30,162 nucleotides of DNA from a virus. A model generated the notes under the pieces. The model was not told where the DNA came from. It was given only the letters and a program-made list of their open reading frames with translations, and did no database searches. A program made the position numbers and the translations under genes. Location: positions 1 through 30,162 of IMG/VR virus record IMGVR_UViG_3300025468_000012. One strand, written 5' to 3'. Shown piece by piece: positions 551 through 8,369 of this stretch (position 1 is its first letter; each line of letters opens with the position of its first letter).

Positions 551-653
551 TTGCAAGAGTTGAGAAGTAACAGAAAAACCAATGGATAGCCCCGCTTATA
601 ACTTCTTTATTCTTGCAGATAAAATTATAGGAGCTTCCGTTGGTTTTTCTGTT
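551..653 (+). ncRNA. Structured leader RNA with two crossing 18-bp helices
   Basis: Bases 551-568 pair with 601-618 (17 of 18 positions, including G-U pairs; the mismatch is 561/608). Bases 569-586 pair with 636-653 (18 of 18, one G-U). The 5' arms are adjacent and the 3' arm of the first helix lies inside the loop of the second, so the helices cross. They may form a partial pseudoknot or act as two alternative folds. The first helix starts at the expected transcript start of P1. The second ends three bases before the AGGAG (656-660) of the endonuclease gene at 667. The function is unknown; control of that gene is an inference. I do not recognise a known RNA family. Confidence 0.6.
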
Positions 654-2295: not shown

Positions 2296-3111
2296 ATGAT
2301 ATATACAGATGAATTCTTGATACAAGAGCTTCAGCATTTTTCGAGTTACTTAGATAAAAATCCCACACAGAGAGAAGTTAAGCAAGATGAATTAATGCCT
2401 GCAACTTCCACATATGAGAAAAGGTTTGGTTCTTGGAATAAGGCTTTAGAAGCTGCAGGCCTTAATAATAATTTAAAACAACATAGAAAGTATACTAAAA
2501 TAGAACTAGTTACTTTATTTAAAAACCTTTGTACAGAATTAAAAAAGGTGCCTACAGTACGAGAATTAAACTTAGATAAAAGTACTCCCTCTGCTTCTAC
2601 ATATGCAAGGTACTTTGGTTCTTATAATTCCATTTGTGCTTTAGTAGTTAAAGGCTGTTATGGTAAATCAAAGAATATTAGTAAAGAAAACTTAGCTCTA
2701 TCTTACAATAAAGAATGGCTTAGTAAGGAAAACGAGACTAAAACTTTACACGAAATAAGTAATGATTTAGGGTATAATAAACATAGAATGTCTAGCAGGT
2801 TCAAAGAGTTAGATATTAAACCTATACTACATAAAGAATCATTGAAAGAAAAAGAGTGGTTAGATTCTTTAGGTATTACAGAAAGACAGTATCCGATAGC
2901 GAACTATAAAGTCGATGGATACGATCCTGAGACTAATACAGTATACGAGTTCTTAGGTGATTACTGGCACGGTAATCCTGAAGTTTACGATCCAGACGAC
3001 TACAATGAGAAAGTAGGTAAAACGTTTGGACAGTTATTTGATGAAACTAATATAAGACTAGAACATATCAAGTCTTTAGGATACAATATAATTACAGAGT
3101 GGGAAAACTAA
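2296..3111 (+). CDS. Homing-type endonuclease HEG2 (271 aa)
   Basis: Two N-terminal homing-endonuclease-associated repeats (about residues 3-57 and 66-118) each carry the FGS[WY]N signature. The shared linker ISKENLALSYNKEW follows at about 128-180, then a compact nuclease-like domain (about 183-270). That domain has KVDGYDPETNTVYEFLGDYW followed by HGNP, and ends GYNIITEWEN. The acidic/His pattern suggests a Vsr/PD-(D/E)xK-type fold, but I cannot confirm catalytic residues. TAGGA upstream of the ATG is a plausible ribosome site and P2 lies just before it. Its stop overlaps the start of HEG3 as TAATG. A 116-base part of its catalytic region is identical to HEG4 about 5 kb away, so the copies are recent or were homogenised. 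Confidence 0.8.
   Translation: MIYTDEFLIQELQHFSSYLDKNPTQREVKQDELMPATSTYEKRFGSWNKALEAAGLNNNLKQHRKYTKIELVTLFKNLCTELKKVPTVRELNLDKSTPSASTYARYFGSYNSICALVVKGCYGKSKNISKENLALSYNKEWLSKENETKTLHEISNDLGYNKHRMSSRFKELDIKPILHKESLKEKEWLDSLGITERQYPIANYKVDGYDPETNTVYEFLGDYWHGNPEVYDPDDYNEKVGKTFGQLFDETNIRLEHIKSLGYNIITEWEN
2887..3002 (+). repeat. 116-base direct repeat, copy A (endonuclease catalytic cassette)
   Basis: This stretch of HEG2 is base-for-base identical to 8133-8248 in HEG4. HEG3 carries a diverged copy at 3690-3805 with about 8 differences. It encodes the PIANYKVDGYD to PEVYDPDD segment. It is long enough to support recombination or gene conversion across the portal-capsid block. Confidence 0.9.
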
Positions 3112-3926
3112 TGTATACTAAAGAACTACTAATAGAAGAGTTAAGGTACTTTGCGGAATATTTAGGTAAAACGCCTACAATACCTGAAGTAGATAATGAT
3201 ACTTTAATGCCTTGCAGTACTACTTATAAAAACTGTTTTGGGTCTTGGAATAACGCATTAGTTGAGGTAGGTTTAAAATCTAACATCCTAACACACACTG
3301 ATGTGCACTTAATAAGGTTATTAGAACAGTTTGCAGTAGTTTTGGGTAAAACGCCTACAGTATCTGAGATAGATAAAAGTACTTCAATGCCTTGTAGTAC
3401 TACTTATAAAGATCGTTTTGGCTCCTGGAACAACGCAATAATTAAAGCAGGTTTAAAACCTAACTGTAATCAGTCCCACATTACAGAAGAAAACTTAGCT
3501 TTATCATACAATAAAGAATGGCTTAGTAAAGAAAACCAAACAAAAACTTTAAAAGAAATAAGTAGGAATCTAGGCTATAATAAACATGAGATGTCCAGTA
3601 GGTTTAAAGAATTAGGCATCAAACCTATACTACATAAAGAATCCTTGAAAGAAAAAGAGTGGTTAGATTCTTTAGGTATTACAGAAAGACAGTATCCTAT
3701 AGAGAACTATAAAGTCGATGGATATGATCCCGAGACTAATACAGTATATGAGTTCTTAGGTGATTACTGGCATGGCAATCCTGAAGTTTACGATCCAGAC
3801 GATTATAATAAAAGCTGCAGTAAAACGTTTGGACAGTTATTTGATGAAACTAATAAAAGACTAAAATACATCAAATCCTTAGGGTACAATATAATTACAG
3901 AGTGGGAAAACGAGTGGCAGAATTAA
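3111..3926 (+). CDS. Homing-type endonuclease HEG3 (271 aa), tandem paralogue of HEG2
   Basis: The architecture matches HEG2: two N-terminal FGSWNNA repeats (about residues 2-55 and 60-113), linker CNQSHITEENLALSYNKEW, and the DGYDPETNTVYEFLGDYWHG nuclease-like domain. I chose the ATG at 3111 because it overlaps the HEG2 stop as TAATG and aligns with the other family members. A GTG at 3099 in the same frame is a poorer choice. The N-terminal repeats differ more from HEG2 and HEG4 than the nuclease part does, consistent with changed DNA specificity on a conserved nuclease. The last codons overlap the 5' end of the HNH gene in another frame. Confidence 0.8.
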   Translation: MYTKELLIEELRYFAEYLGKTPTIPEVDNDTLMPCSTTYKNCFGSWNNALVEVGLKSNILTHTDVHLIRLLEQFAVVLGKTPTVSEIDKSTSMPCSTTYKDRFGSWNNAIIKAGLKPNCNQSHITEENLALSYNKEWLSKENQTKTLKEISRNLGYNKHEMSSRFKELGIKPILHKESLKEKEWLDSLGITERQYPIENYKVDGYDPETNTVYEFLGDYWHGNPEVYDPDDYNKSCSKTFGQLFDETNKRLKYIKSLGYNIITEWENEWQN

Positions 3927-4294
3927 AGAGACAACTAATCAAGTACTGTAGAGATAAAGCAAAATCAAAGTATGATAAAGGTACTGAATGTTTTATTTGT
4001 GGTAGTATAGAGAGCTTAGAGTTCCATCACTATAATGGTATGACAGAGCTACTAGAAAAGTGGTTAAAACAGCAAGGCATTTCCAATATAAGTACAGCCG
4101 AAGATATTATGGATATACGAGAGCAGTTTATTTCAGAAAATCTCAAAGAGATTTATGACGAAACAGTTACATTGTGTAAAACCCACCATCAGAGGTTGCA
4201 TGGAATTTACGGAAAACGTCCTCAGCTACACACTGCTAAAAAGCAGGAGCGTTGGGTTATTAAACGAAGAGATAAAGAATATGAGTTGGTTTAA
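3902..4294 (+). CDS. Small HNH-type endonuclease next to the terminase/portal genes
   Basis: This 130-aa protein has CFICG at about residues 31-35, EFHHYNG at about 41-47 and TLCKTHHQRLHG at about 89-100. That is the Cys-rich ribbon and His layout of the HNH (His-Me finger) nucleases. HNH proteins often sit beside terminase and portal genes in HK97-type phages and can assist packaging cleavage, so it may be a resident packaging gene rather than a mobile one. The start is uncertain: GTG at 3902 or GTG at 3914 (MAELKRQ), both inside the end of HEG3 and neither with a strong ribosome site. The 3' end overlaps the portal start by 14 bases. Confidence 0.72.
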   Translation: MGKRVAELKRQLIKYCRDKAKSKYDKGTECFICGSIESLEFHHYNGMTELLEKWLKQQGISNISTAEDIMDIREQFISENLKEIYDETVTLCKTHHQRLHGIYGKRPQLHTAKKQERWVIKRRDKEYELV

Positions 4295-5462: not shown

Positions 5463-7393
5463 ATAAACAATTTGAAATTAGCTCTCCATTTAATGTTGTT
5501 GAGAAAGCGGCCGGAGAGTCGGACTCTATAACAATTAAAGGTTACGCCAATACTGTTTCTAAGGATCGTTCGGGCGATATAATTGTGAAAGAAGCATGGG
5601 AGCAAGGTGGATTGGATAATTATCTCAAAAACCCTGTAATTCTAGCTTTTCATGATCACTCTCGTCCTATTGGCTCTGCCGTTAATTATAACGTCACTGA
5701 CAAAGGTTTAGAGATTGTAGCAGAAATTAGTAAAGCTGCTGGCGAAGTATATAACCTCATTAAAGACGGAGTTTTAAAAACTTTTAGCGTAGGATTTAGT
5801 ATCAAAGATGCTGACTACGACAGGGACGAAGATACCTTCTTCATTAAAGACTTAGAGCTTTTTGAAGTATCAGTTGTATCTATACCCGCTAACCAAGATT
5901 CGACATTTTCTTTAGCTAAATCTTTTACTGATATTGGCGAGTATAACGACTTCAAGAAGAGCTTCGTGGCTCAACAAGAAGACGAGATTGAAGAAAAAGA
6001 AGAAACTACTGAAATTGAGAAGATACCTTCTCAGGATAATAATATTCTCAAGGAATTAAAAATGGATCAAAAAGAATTACAAGAAATGATGGCTAAAACT
6101 GCACTAGGTGCTGTTGAAGCTTACAAAACAGAAGTTGCTGAAAAAGAAGCAGAAGTTGCCGCAGATAAGAAAGTAGCAGCATTAGAAGTCGGTAAGACTC
6201 ATGCAGAGAAAGTAGCAGAGGAGTTAGAAACTCGTATTAAGGCCGACGGAGATAGCTATGCTAAGTCTCTAGAGGAGATGCAGACTGAGTTAAAGGGAGC
6301 TAAAGAAGAGATGGCTGCTATGCAGAAGTCTAAAATGCAGTTCTCTGAGCCTGGTTCTGGTACACCTAGTGCTGACGAGCTCAACAGTGCTTTCATTACA
6401 TCTAAGATTTTAGGTGTACCTGTTAAAGAACTAGACTTTGGTAAGAGATTGCTTGAGAAGGGTAATCGTGTCAACTCTGATGACCAGGATTGGGAGACTA
6501 CTTGGAACTCAAATATCTACCAAGCTATTCAGAATCGTGTAGTTGTTGAACCAGTATTCAACTCTCTAGCGATGAATGCTCGCGTTATGAATATGCCTAT
6601 CAACCCAGATACGGGTCTTGATGCTACTTGGGTAGATGCAACTAACCAGAATGATTTCAATGACGGCGCTGCTATTGGTACTGCTTTCAATGATGCTTCT
6701 ACAGGTGCTATTAAACAACACGTTCTAAACGAAGTAACGCTAACTGCATATAAGCTAGCTACTCGTGAGTATATCGGTTATGAAGAGGAAGAGGATACAC
6801 TACTTCCAATCGCTGCTATCGTTCGTGATGCAATTGTACGTCGTATGGCTCGCACTTCCGATGCTTCTATCCTAGGTACTGGTACAGCTGCTCCTTTCAC
6901 TGAATTGGAAGAACTAGCTGGTGGTAATGTTGGTAACAACGTTACTACTGCAGCAGCAGGTACTATGATTAGTACAGCTAACATCCTAACAGCACGTTCT
7001 AATATGGGACAATGGGGACATAACCCTTCTGACTTAGTATTATTCTTAAGCCAGCAAGCATATTATGGTCTTATGGACAATACTAATGTTGTTACTGTTG
7101 ATAAGTATGGTGAGTCTGCTACTATTCGCTCTGGCGAACTAGGTAAAGTATTTGGTGTTTCTATGGTTGTATCGGATGCTTTTGAAGCTGAAGCTGCAGG
7201 CAAGGCACAAGGCATTTTAGTTAATCCTCAAAATTATATTTTAGGTAACTACCGAGCACTTACTGTGCAATCTGCTGAAGATATAGTTGCGCAGCAAAAA
7301 GCTATCGTAGCTACTCGTAGATTTGGCTTCATCGCTAAAGAAGCGGGAGCTGCTGGTAAGGCATCTATGTGCTTACTTAAGTCTGGTGCTTAA
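5459..7393 (+). CDS. Fused prohead protease, scaffold and major capsid protein (HK97 type)
   Basis: This 644-aa protein joins three head functions. Residues 1 to about 165 match the S78 prohead protease: GYANTVSKDRSGDIIV, the His region ILAFHDHSRPIG, the Ser region LKTFSVGFSI and LELFEVSVVSIPAN. Residues about 175-290 are charged, Lys/Glu/Ala-rich and probably coiled coil, like the delta/scaffold domain. The remainder is the HK97 capsid fold, with ending IVATRRFGFIAKEAGA. An in-frame ATG at 6062 (Met202) follows AAGGA (6050-6054) at 7 bases, so a separate 443-aa scaffold-capsid product is likely. The full product would deliver the protease into the prohead at low copy. The stop is followed by a terminator at 7411. 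Confidence 0.93.
   Translation: MNKQFEISSPFNVVEKAAGESDSITIKGYANTVSKDRSGDIIVKEAWEQGGLDNYLKNPVILAFHDHSRPIGSAVNYNVTDKGLEIVAEISKAAGEVYNLIKDGVLKTFSVGFSIKDADYDRDEDTFFIKDLELFEVSVVSIPANQDSTFSLAKSFTDIGEYNDFKKSFVAQQEDEIEEKEETTEIEKIPSQDNNILKELKMDQKELQEMMAKTALGAVEAYKTEVAEKEAEVAADKKVAALEVGKTHAEKVAEELETRIKADGDSYAKSLEEMQTELKGAKEEMAAMQKSKMQFSEPGSGTPSADELNSAFITSKILGVPVKELDFGKRLLEKGNRVNSDDQDWETTWNSNIYQAIQNRVVVEPVFNSLAMNARVMNMPINPDTGLDATWVDATNQNDFNDGAAIGTAFNDASTGAIKQHVLNEVTLTAYKLATREYIGYEEEEDTLLPIAAIVRDAIVRRMARTSDASILGTGTAAPFTELEELAGGNVGNNVTTAAAGTMISTANILTARSNMGQWGHNPSDLVLFLSQQAYYGLMDNTNVVTVDKYGESATIRSGELGKVFGVSMVVSDAFEAEAAGKAQGILVNPQNYILGNYRALTVQSAEDIVAQQKAIVATRRFGFIAKEAGAAGKASMCLLKSGA
6050..6064 (+). promoter_or_regulatory. 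Internal ribosome site and ATG for a separate scaffold-capsid product
   Basis: AAGGA at 6050-6054 lies 7 bases before ATG 6062-6064, in frame with the 5459 gene. It sits exactly between the protease domain and the scaffold-like domain. Confidence 0.6.
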
Positions 7394-7410
7394 TAGCTAG
7401 AGACTAAATT

Positions 7411-7439
7411 ACTGACTGGGTAAAACCAGTCAGTTTTTC
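7411..7439 (+). terminator. Rho-independent terminator after the capsid gene
   Basis: ACTGACTGG (7411-7419) and CCAGTCAGT (7426-7434) form a perfect 9-bp stem with a 6-base loop, followed by a T run. It would limit readthrough from capsid transcripts into HEG4 and the connector genes. Confidence 0.85.
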
Positions 7440-7461
7440 TAAGCTTTCGAGTTTAGAAAAA
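7434..7461 (+). promoter_or_regulatory. UUCG-loop hairpin sharing the terminator T-run
   Basis: TTTTTCTAA (7434-7442) pairs with TTAGAAAAA (7453-7461). The helix can extend inward to a TTCG loop at 7446-7449. Its left arm is the T-tract of the preceding terminator, so the two structures share bases. A mirror-strand terminator or an RNA-processing/stability hairpin are possible roles. Confidence 0.5.
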
Positions 7462-7497
7462 CTTATAGAGCGAATCGGCCGGCCAGCCTTTTTAGTA

Positions 7498-7538
7498 CCT
7501 TGTATACTGAATAGCTCACCAAATAGTATCTTACAAGG
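7498..7538 (+). promoter_or_regulatory. Hairpin covering the HEG4 ribosome-binding site
   Basis: CCTTGTA (7498-7504) pairs with TACAAGG (7532-7538), with three further pairs inside (7505-7507/7526-7528). The AAGG of the HEG4 ribosome site AAGGAG lies in the 3' arm, seven bases before the ATG at 7545. Folding should reduce HEG4 translation on readthrough transcripts, as described for some T4 homing-endonuclease genes. Confidence 0.55.
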
Positions 7539-7544
7539 AGAGTC

Positions 7545-8369
7545 ATGGGAAAGTATACAAAAGAACTATTAGTTGAAGAACTTCAGTACTTTACAGAGTA
7601 TTTAGGCAGAACCCCTACCGTTTCTGAGGTAGATAAGGATCCTTTAATGCCTTGCTGTAATACGTACAAAAGGTACTTTGGTTCTCATAATAAGGCTCTT
7701 ATTGCCGCAAGTATTACACTTAATAGACATACAGAATACTCCGTAGAATCTTTACTAAAAGATCTAAAAACTTTAGCAGGTAAACTAAAACACACTCCTA
7801 CTTATAAAGAGTTGTCTATAGATAACCAAACCTATAGCACTGAAACGTATAGAAAAGTATTTGGATCATATACTACTGCTTGTATAAAAGCAGGTTTAAA
7901 ACCTAACTGTAATCAATCACATATTACGGAAGAAAACTTAGCTCTATCTTACAATAAAGAATGGTTAAAAAAAGAGAATAAAACTAAACCCTTAATTCAA
8001 ATAAGTAAAGAATTAGGTTATCAGAAGGGTAAATTATCTCATAGATTCAAGGAACTAGATATTAAACCCGTACTACATAAAGAATCATTAAAAGAAAAAG
8101 AGTGGTTAGATTCTTTAGGTATTACAGAGCGGCAGTATCCGATAGCGAACTATAAAGTCGATGGATACGATCCTGAGACTAATACAGTATACGAGTTCTT
8201 AGGTGATTACTGGCACGGTAATCCTGAAGTTTACGATCCAGACGACTATAATAAAAGCTGTAGTAAAACGTTTGGACAGTTACACAACGAAACAATAGAA
8301 AGACTAGAACATATCAAGTCTTTAGGTTATAATATAATTATACAATGGGAAAAGGAATGGCTGATTTAG
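7545..8369 (+). CDS. Homing-type endonuclease HEG4 (274 aa)
   Basis: Same family as HEG2 and HEG3. It has two N-terminal repeats (about residues 4-57 and 63-117; RYFGSHNKA and KVFGSYTTA), linker CNQSHITEENLALSYNKEW (about 120-175), and a nuclease-like domain with KVDGYDPETNTVYEFLGDYW and HGNP, ending GYNIIIQWEKEW. AAGGAG precedes the ATG by 5 bases but lies in a hairpin. It sits between capsid and connector genes, a second insertion point away from the terL-portal cluster. No promoter of the P1-P4 type precedes it. Its last 25 bases overlap the annotated start of the connector gene. Linker DNA closely matches HEG1, while the catalytic cassette is identical to HEG2 over 116 bases. Confidence 0.8.
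   Translation: MGKYTKELLVEELQYFTEYLGRTPTVSEVDKDPLMPCCNTYKRYFGSHNKALIAASITLNRHTEYSVESLLKDLKTLAGKLKHTPTYKELSIDNQTYSTETYRKVFGSYTTACIKAGLKPNCNQSHITEENLALSYNKEWLKKENKTKPLIQISKELGYQKGKLSHRFKELDIKPVLHKESLKEKEWLDSLGITERQYPIANYKVDGYDPETNTVYEFLGDYWHGNPEVYDPDDYNKSCSKTFGQLHNETIERLEHIKSLGYNIIIQWEKEWLI
8133..8248 (+). repeat. 116-base direct repeat, copy B (endonuclease catalytic cassette)
   Basis: Identical to 2887-3002 in HEG2 and about 93% identical to 3690-3805 in HEG3, by direct comparison of the printed bases. Confidence 0.9.

Follow-up and report, generated by a model that had tools for sequence, protein, structure and literature searches.

HEG1, a free-standing homing endonuclease gene of a marine phage, is preceded by a real structured leader that belongs to a homing-gene cassette and in which two long helices cross each other between the promoter and the ribosome site. 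Our tentative reading, held with slightly less than even confidence, is that this leader acts in cis as a brake on HEG1 through attenuation or processing at the second helix (B:B'), with the first helix (A:A') serving as a transient 5' hairpin or as a partner in a pseudoknot.

The homing-gene cassette

The window, that is, the whole stretch of 30,162 nucleotides analysed here, is an IMG/VR virus record whose source is a marine phage, and it carries terminase, portal, protease-capsid, connector and tape-measure genes. The features discussed below are the following:

518 to 546, + strand: P1, a sigma-70 promoter (TTGACA at 518-523, 17-nt spacer, TATAAT at 541-546, TG before the -10)
551 to 568, + strand: arm A, the 5' side of the early, transient helix, pairs with 601-618 (17/18)
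569 to 586, + strand: arm B, the 5' side of the hairpin formed last, an A-tract followed by CCAAUGGA, pairs with 636-653 (18/18)
601 to 618, + strand: arm A', partner of arm A
636 to 653, + strand: arm B', ends in UUUUUCUGUU and runs into UU-AGGAG, a U-rich terminator-like 3' side
656 to 670, + strand: HEG1 ribosome site (AGGAG, 656-660) and ATG (667-669), predicted to stay open when the full leader folds
667 to 2232, + strand: HEG1, a Hef-like free-standing homing endonuclease with an HNH_repeat N-terminus and a Vsr/MTES_1575-like nuclease
2243 to 2271, + strand: P2, a promoter with a 12/12 match, directly after the HEG1 stop codon

P1 matches the consensus at 12 of 12 positions and has an extended -10. 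Since the match is exact, transcription is expected to start near G553, which puts helix A at the 5' end of the RNA (within 1-2 nt) and bears out the claim of an earlier note on this DNA that the element begins at the predicted start of a perfect promoter. The HEG1 product matches PF18780 (HNH_repeat, 2.5e-36) and, under the cut-off of that family, PF18741 (2.6e-5), and its match to PHROG 3339 (homing endonuclease, 5.6e-111) places it among the phage homing endonucleases.

HEG1, P1 and the leader sit between the terminase gene and P2. In relatives of the terminase (76-88% identical), what usually comes after the gene is the same type of promoter, then a short leader, then a small HNH gene; in a few, something else is inserted or the gene downstream is not the same. 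P2 aligns with the promoter behind the terminase gene in two relatives without HEG1 (L016 and L024). Moreover, P1 resembles the promoters of this phage group, including one ahead of another homing gene (L197), and for this reason P1, the leader and HEG1 look like one mobile cassette, with insertion boundaries that are deduced from sequence. The leader appears to go with HEG1, because the post-terminase promoter of the relatives corresponds to P2 and no diverged HEG1 leader occurs among the relatives examined.

Four exact TTGACA-N17-TATAAT promoters are present in the window (518, 2243, 21808 and 29787), all on the + strand, and 347 bases separate the end of the fourth from the right end of the window. 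The window also holds three homing genes of one family at 2296-3926 and 7545-8369, whose proteins are 63-66% identical and almost the same at their C-termini. HEG2 and HEG3 stand in tandem, and the end of HEG3 is overlapped by the next gene (small HNH, 3902-4294). At the same post-terminase site of another contig (L046:5379-5510), a GIY-YIG-like homing gene lies between the native promoter and leader and the HNH gene, and its folded leader of ~130 nt has GGCGC...GCGCC arms around a putative ribosome site.

Two long crossing helices and their rarity

A recount with G-U pairs allowed gave 17/18 for helix A (551-568/601-618) and 18/18 for helix B (569-586/636-653), as the earlier note had reported. 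Helix A consists of 14 Watson-Crick pairs, three G-U pairs and one U-U mismatch, and helix B of 17 Watson-Crick pairs and one G-U pair. The 5' arms do abut and the pairings do cross, the remaining linkers being 14 nt (587-600) and 17 nt (619-635) long. Helix B extends inward by UAGC/AGCU and CC/GG pairs, and one of its arms contains an A-tract, the other a U-tract (AAAAACC ... GGUUUUUCUGUUUU). Arm B' ends at 653 and AGGAG occupies 656-660, in agreement with the claim that the element stops three bases before the ribosome site.

Among 5,000 dinucleotide shuffles of 551-653, a helix of at least 17/18 was found in 10 and one of 18/18 in a single shuffle, and none contained a crossing pair. The duplex between arm A and the loop (-20.7 kcal/mol) was matched by none of 5,000 shuffles and by one of 2,930 places of the same geometry in the window. 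Furthermore, in 1.05 Mb of related phage DNA, searched on both strands, this is the sole crossing pair in which both helix scores reach at least 30; a search of this DNA for further crossing helices of equal strength returned none, and the next-best pair has a score of 26 for its weaker helix, versus 31 for the HEG1 leader. The judgement that two such long helices are very unlikely to arise by chance is thus upheld by the shuffles and by the uniqueness of the pair in the 1.05 Mb.

Taken alone, helix A is not rare, as 83 helices of at least its strength were counted on one strand of the 1.05 Mb, and the strength of helix B was matched by only 7 in the same DNA. This abundance, together with the G-U pairs and the mismatch of helix A and its lack of any computed effect on access to the ribosome site, would suit a view in which only B:B' matters, as a terminator-like or spacer hairpin, and helix A is an evolutionary accident. 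We consider this rather improbable, given that helix A begins at the predicted 5' end and abuts helix B exactly, and that no shuffle equalled the pairing of arm A with the loop.

Predicted folding order

Folding was computed for RNAs starting at 553 with increasing 3' ends, a series that describes equilibrium thermodynamics at each length and not kinetics. Helix A has a probability of 0.98 in RNAs ending anywhere from 618 to 642. When the RNA ends at 648 the probabilities are 0.32 for helix A and 0.47 for helix B, and from base 654 onward helix B reaches 0.98, with a minimum free energy of -32.7 kcal/mol. The fold of the full-length leader has a z of -3.9. Co-transcriptional refolding, one of the possibilities raised in the earlier note, is therefore supported by this thermodynamic series, in which A:A' dominates until B' is made and B:B' takes over afterwards.

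The earlier note also held that both helices cannot fully form at once. Full coexistence would indeed leave a linker of 0 nt between A and B and require the 17-nt linker to run nearly straight along ~34-36 bp; as a bar to any joint structure, however, the statement is too strong, since the geometry suggests that helix A and the inner 8-12 bp of helix B are sterically reasonable together, with the 14-nt and 17-nt linkers able to span them and 6-10 nt left between A and B. A stable pseudoknot that combines A:A' with most or all of B:B' in a compact RNA (a protein operator, a ribosome standby site or a 5' protective cap) would draw on this geometry, on the continuous A-B strand of 36 nt and on the fact that crossing helices of such strength are unique in the 1.05 Mb. 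Nevertheless, it seems unlikely to us, because of the strain of the full structure and because nested folding already gives -32.7 kcal/mol to helix B alone, a value to be compared with pseudoknot energies that are not reliably computable.

Access to the ribosome site

In RNA from 553, the SD has a mean unpaired probability of 0.74 and opening 656-670 costs 1.0 kcal/mol; for transcripts with any start between 1 and 569 the unpaired probability is 0.42-0.77, and the SD is still predicted to be largely open when arm B is blocked. Only the removal of both 5' arms closes it in these computations (0.05, RNA from 587 or 600). The region that could then cover it is A', where ~606-615 can form 10 contiguous pairs, three of them G-U, with the ribosome site (655-664), a weak complementarity, as this duplex of -7.8 kcal/mol (RNAduplex) is equalled by 8.8% of other 49-mers.

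Classic sequestration of the ribosome site was considered and is unsupported, since the SD is predicted to be open in both the A and the B state and the complementarity of A' to it is unexceptional. As access is the same in the two states of the model, helix A has no computed output. The suggestion of a conformational switch is not supported in the sense of two regulatory outputs: the ribosome site is open in the full leader and also with B blocked, and no ligand or trigger is visible.

Processing deserves attention at this point. RNase III-type processing hairpins lie between the early genes of phage T7, and B:B' might be one of this kind, setting the 5' end and the stability of the HEG1 mRNA. 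The 18-bp rod with its inner UAGC/AGCU and CC/GG pairs stands directly upstream of the ribosome site, and the predicted closing of the SD upon loss of both 5' arms implies that processing could switch HEG1 off. The closing, on the other hand, depends on the 606-615 pairing that so many other sequences match, and we regard this version of events as distinctly unlikely.

Control could also come from translation of an upstream frame (582-695, 37 aa), coupled to HEG1 by ribosomes that melt both helices. The frame is open, encodes a hydrophobic stretch (MDSPAYNFFILADKIIGASVGFSVLGV) and overlaps the start of HEG1 by 29 bases. It does not have, however, a good ribosome site at proper spacing, and no homologue of its peptide, identical copies apart, turned up among 50,697 phage records or the loci of relatives examined, so we consider such coupling very improbable.

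Distribution of the leader

The leader is carried by seven contigs including the window, all of them 100% identical over 500-680; HEG1 and its leader are thus present in six other viral contigs. Diverged copies of the leader were sought with the HEG1 protein, a five-member Hef profile, a HEG2-4 profile, three DNA patterns and blastn, and none was obtained. The scan of viral contigs with the HEG1 protein returned near-identical copies only, a profile scan yielded no relative above 51% identity, and no relative was found in bacterial and archaeal genome contigs. Likewise, a DNA similarity search against 50,697 phage records gave no match. Two 19-mer scans produced one extra contig each, whose surroundings are unrelated to the leader, and these were discarded as chance matches.

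Rfam 15 gave 0 matches in the window at the gathering score, and at lax thresholds 480-720 gave only sub-threshold matches at chance level. A group I intron remnant or a ribozyme was rejected as an explanation, as the leader is ~100 nt long, has no Rfam match and interrupts no host gene. In HDV-like ribozymes the strands follow the order P1-5', P2-5', P1-3', P2-3', and the first two are joined nearly without a linker. The HEG1 leader shares this order and the nearly linkerless first strands, but its helices are 18 bp long versus ~7, and Rfam does not recognize it.

Comparison with other homing-gene leaders

Concerning the rest of the phage group, 73 promoter-leader units were collected, ~64 of which have leaders shorter than 60 nt. 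Only three of the collected units have leaders longer than 110 nt with an assigned gene, all of them folded, and two of these three precede homing genes. The leader of a HEG2 relative (L190, 67%) forms a hairpin of 22 bp with its base right at the SD, and its AAAACCA/UGGUUUU ends are those of the HEG1 leader. Most other HEGs in the group have short or unremarkable leaders. After deduplication, the comparison of Hef-like leaders with those of neighbouring genes gave a Mann-Whitney p of 0.018 (n=12 vs 40) and threshold tests gave p of 0.06-0.07; with duplicates included, 33% of the Hef-like leaders and 14% of the others have z < -2.5. This is only suggestive of a slightly higher mean degree of structure in the leaders of Hef-like genes than in those of their neighbours.

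Other leaders show overlapping structures of their own. The HEG4 leader (window 7393-7545) contains a terminator (ACTGACTGG...CCAGTCAGT-TTTT), a hairpin (AGTTTTTCTAAGCT/AGTTTAGAAAAACT) that overlaps it, and a CCTTGTATACT...AGTATCTTACAAGG pairing that would cover the HEG4 ribosome site. Upstream of a terminase gene (L006:735-820), AGGGCTTCG...CGAAGCCCT overlaps AAGCCCT-CCATAGTG-AGGGCTT, followed by CTTT, in an antiterminator/terminator-like arrangement.

A possible cis brake on HEG1

The brake that we tentatively favour would work as follows. The 5' end of the nascent RNA would fold into hairpin A:A'. Once the last 18 bases of the leader emerge, they would pair with arm B, and the longer and more stable hairpin would replace A or form a pseudoknot with it, its base adjoining the ribosome site without covering it. 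In this way the leader may keep HEG1 expression low in cis: B:B' could bring about partial attenuation of transcription at the U-rich 3' arm or, alternatively, be an RNA-processing or decay-control hairpin, and A:A' could meanwhile delay the formation of B or shield the 5' end. The computations yield the pairing and its rarity, the position of the cassette, the expected order of folding and the predicted openness of the ribosome site; the braking itself, its means and any role of A:A' are what we infer.

For attenuation, the relevant feature is a terminator-like core (CCAAUGGA/UCCGUUGG followed by UUUUUCUGUUUU) that encloses a 49-nt loop and was not listed by a terminator scan restricted to loops of 3-8. 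Intrinsic terminators do not usually have so long a loop, which counts against the attenuation reading. The earlier statement that the element is not a simple terminator therefore stands with regard to the loop, but it is weakened by the B arms, which have the A-tract and U-tract flanks of intrinsic terminators. The leader resembles an intrinsic terminator or attenuator in having a stem with these flanks between promoter and gene, and a mutually exclusive earlier helix; it differs in the loop and in that the earlier helix has no strand in common with the stem and excludes it solely by crossing. It is quite improbable, although worth naming, that this represents a new class of leader RNA, in which two linkerless crossing 18-bp helices govern a mobile endonuclease gene through topological exclusion or as a full-length pseudoknot, and in which the antiterminator or brake would share no strand with the terminator-like stem.

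In phage T4, the weak internal terminator of mobE stops ~30% of transcripts, and in I-TevI, I-TevII, I-TevIII, segB and Aeh1 mobE, hairpins sequester the ribosome site in read-through transcripts (PMC2988022). The HEG1 leader is comparable to the I-TevI type in placing an RNA structure near the gene's own promoter, whereas its ribosome site is predicted to be mostly open both in P1 and in read-through transcripts; a paired site of the I-TevI type was not found for starts from 1 to 569 (SD unpaired 0.42-0.77). The sole departure from sequestration in that review is seg43(25) of Aeromonas phage 25, where an unsequestered ribosome site lies right against the base of a very stable hairpin (PMC2988022). 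The HEG1 leader shares this layout: a very stable hairpin stands immediately before the phage homing gene, and the ribosome site, not sequestered, follows the foot of the stem (-32.7 kcal/mol and z -3.9; base at 653, SD at 656, SD unpaired 0.74). However, seg43(25) encodes a segD-like GIY-YIG endonuclease and has no described second crossing helix, and the HEG1 hairpin, unlike that one, follows a dedicated sigma-70 promoter. Regarding the folding order, metastable structures regulate the type I toxin mRNAs of Helicobacter pylori, where, as outlined in PMC6733600, an early structure forms during transcription and is later replaced, as predicted here. In contrast with those mRNAs as the source outlines them, the HEG1 leader has no predicted translation block and no known antisense RNA.

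A homing-gene leader hairpin abutting an uncovered ribosome site had thus already been noted in one phage, where it was left unexplained, and HEG1 provides an independent case that adds two features, a competing helix and a promoter where the element begins. The low, tolerable expression of free-standing homing genes is understood mainly in T4-type phages, via sequestration of the ribosome site, and the effect of the HEG1 leader would be accessible on a 120-nt fragment with simple reporters.
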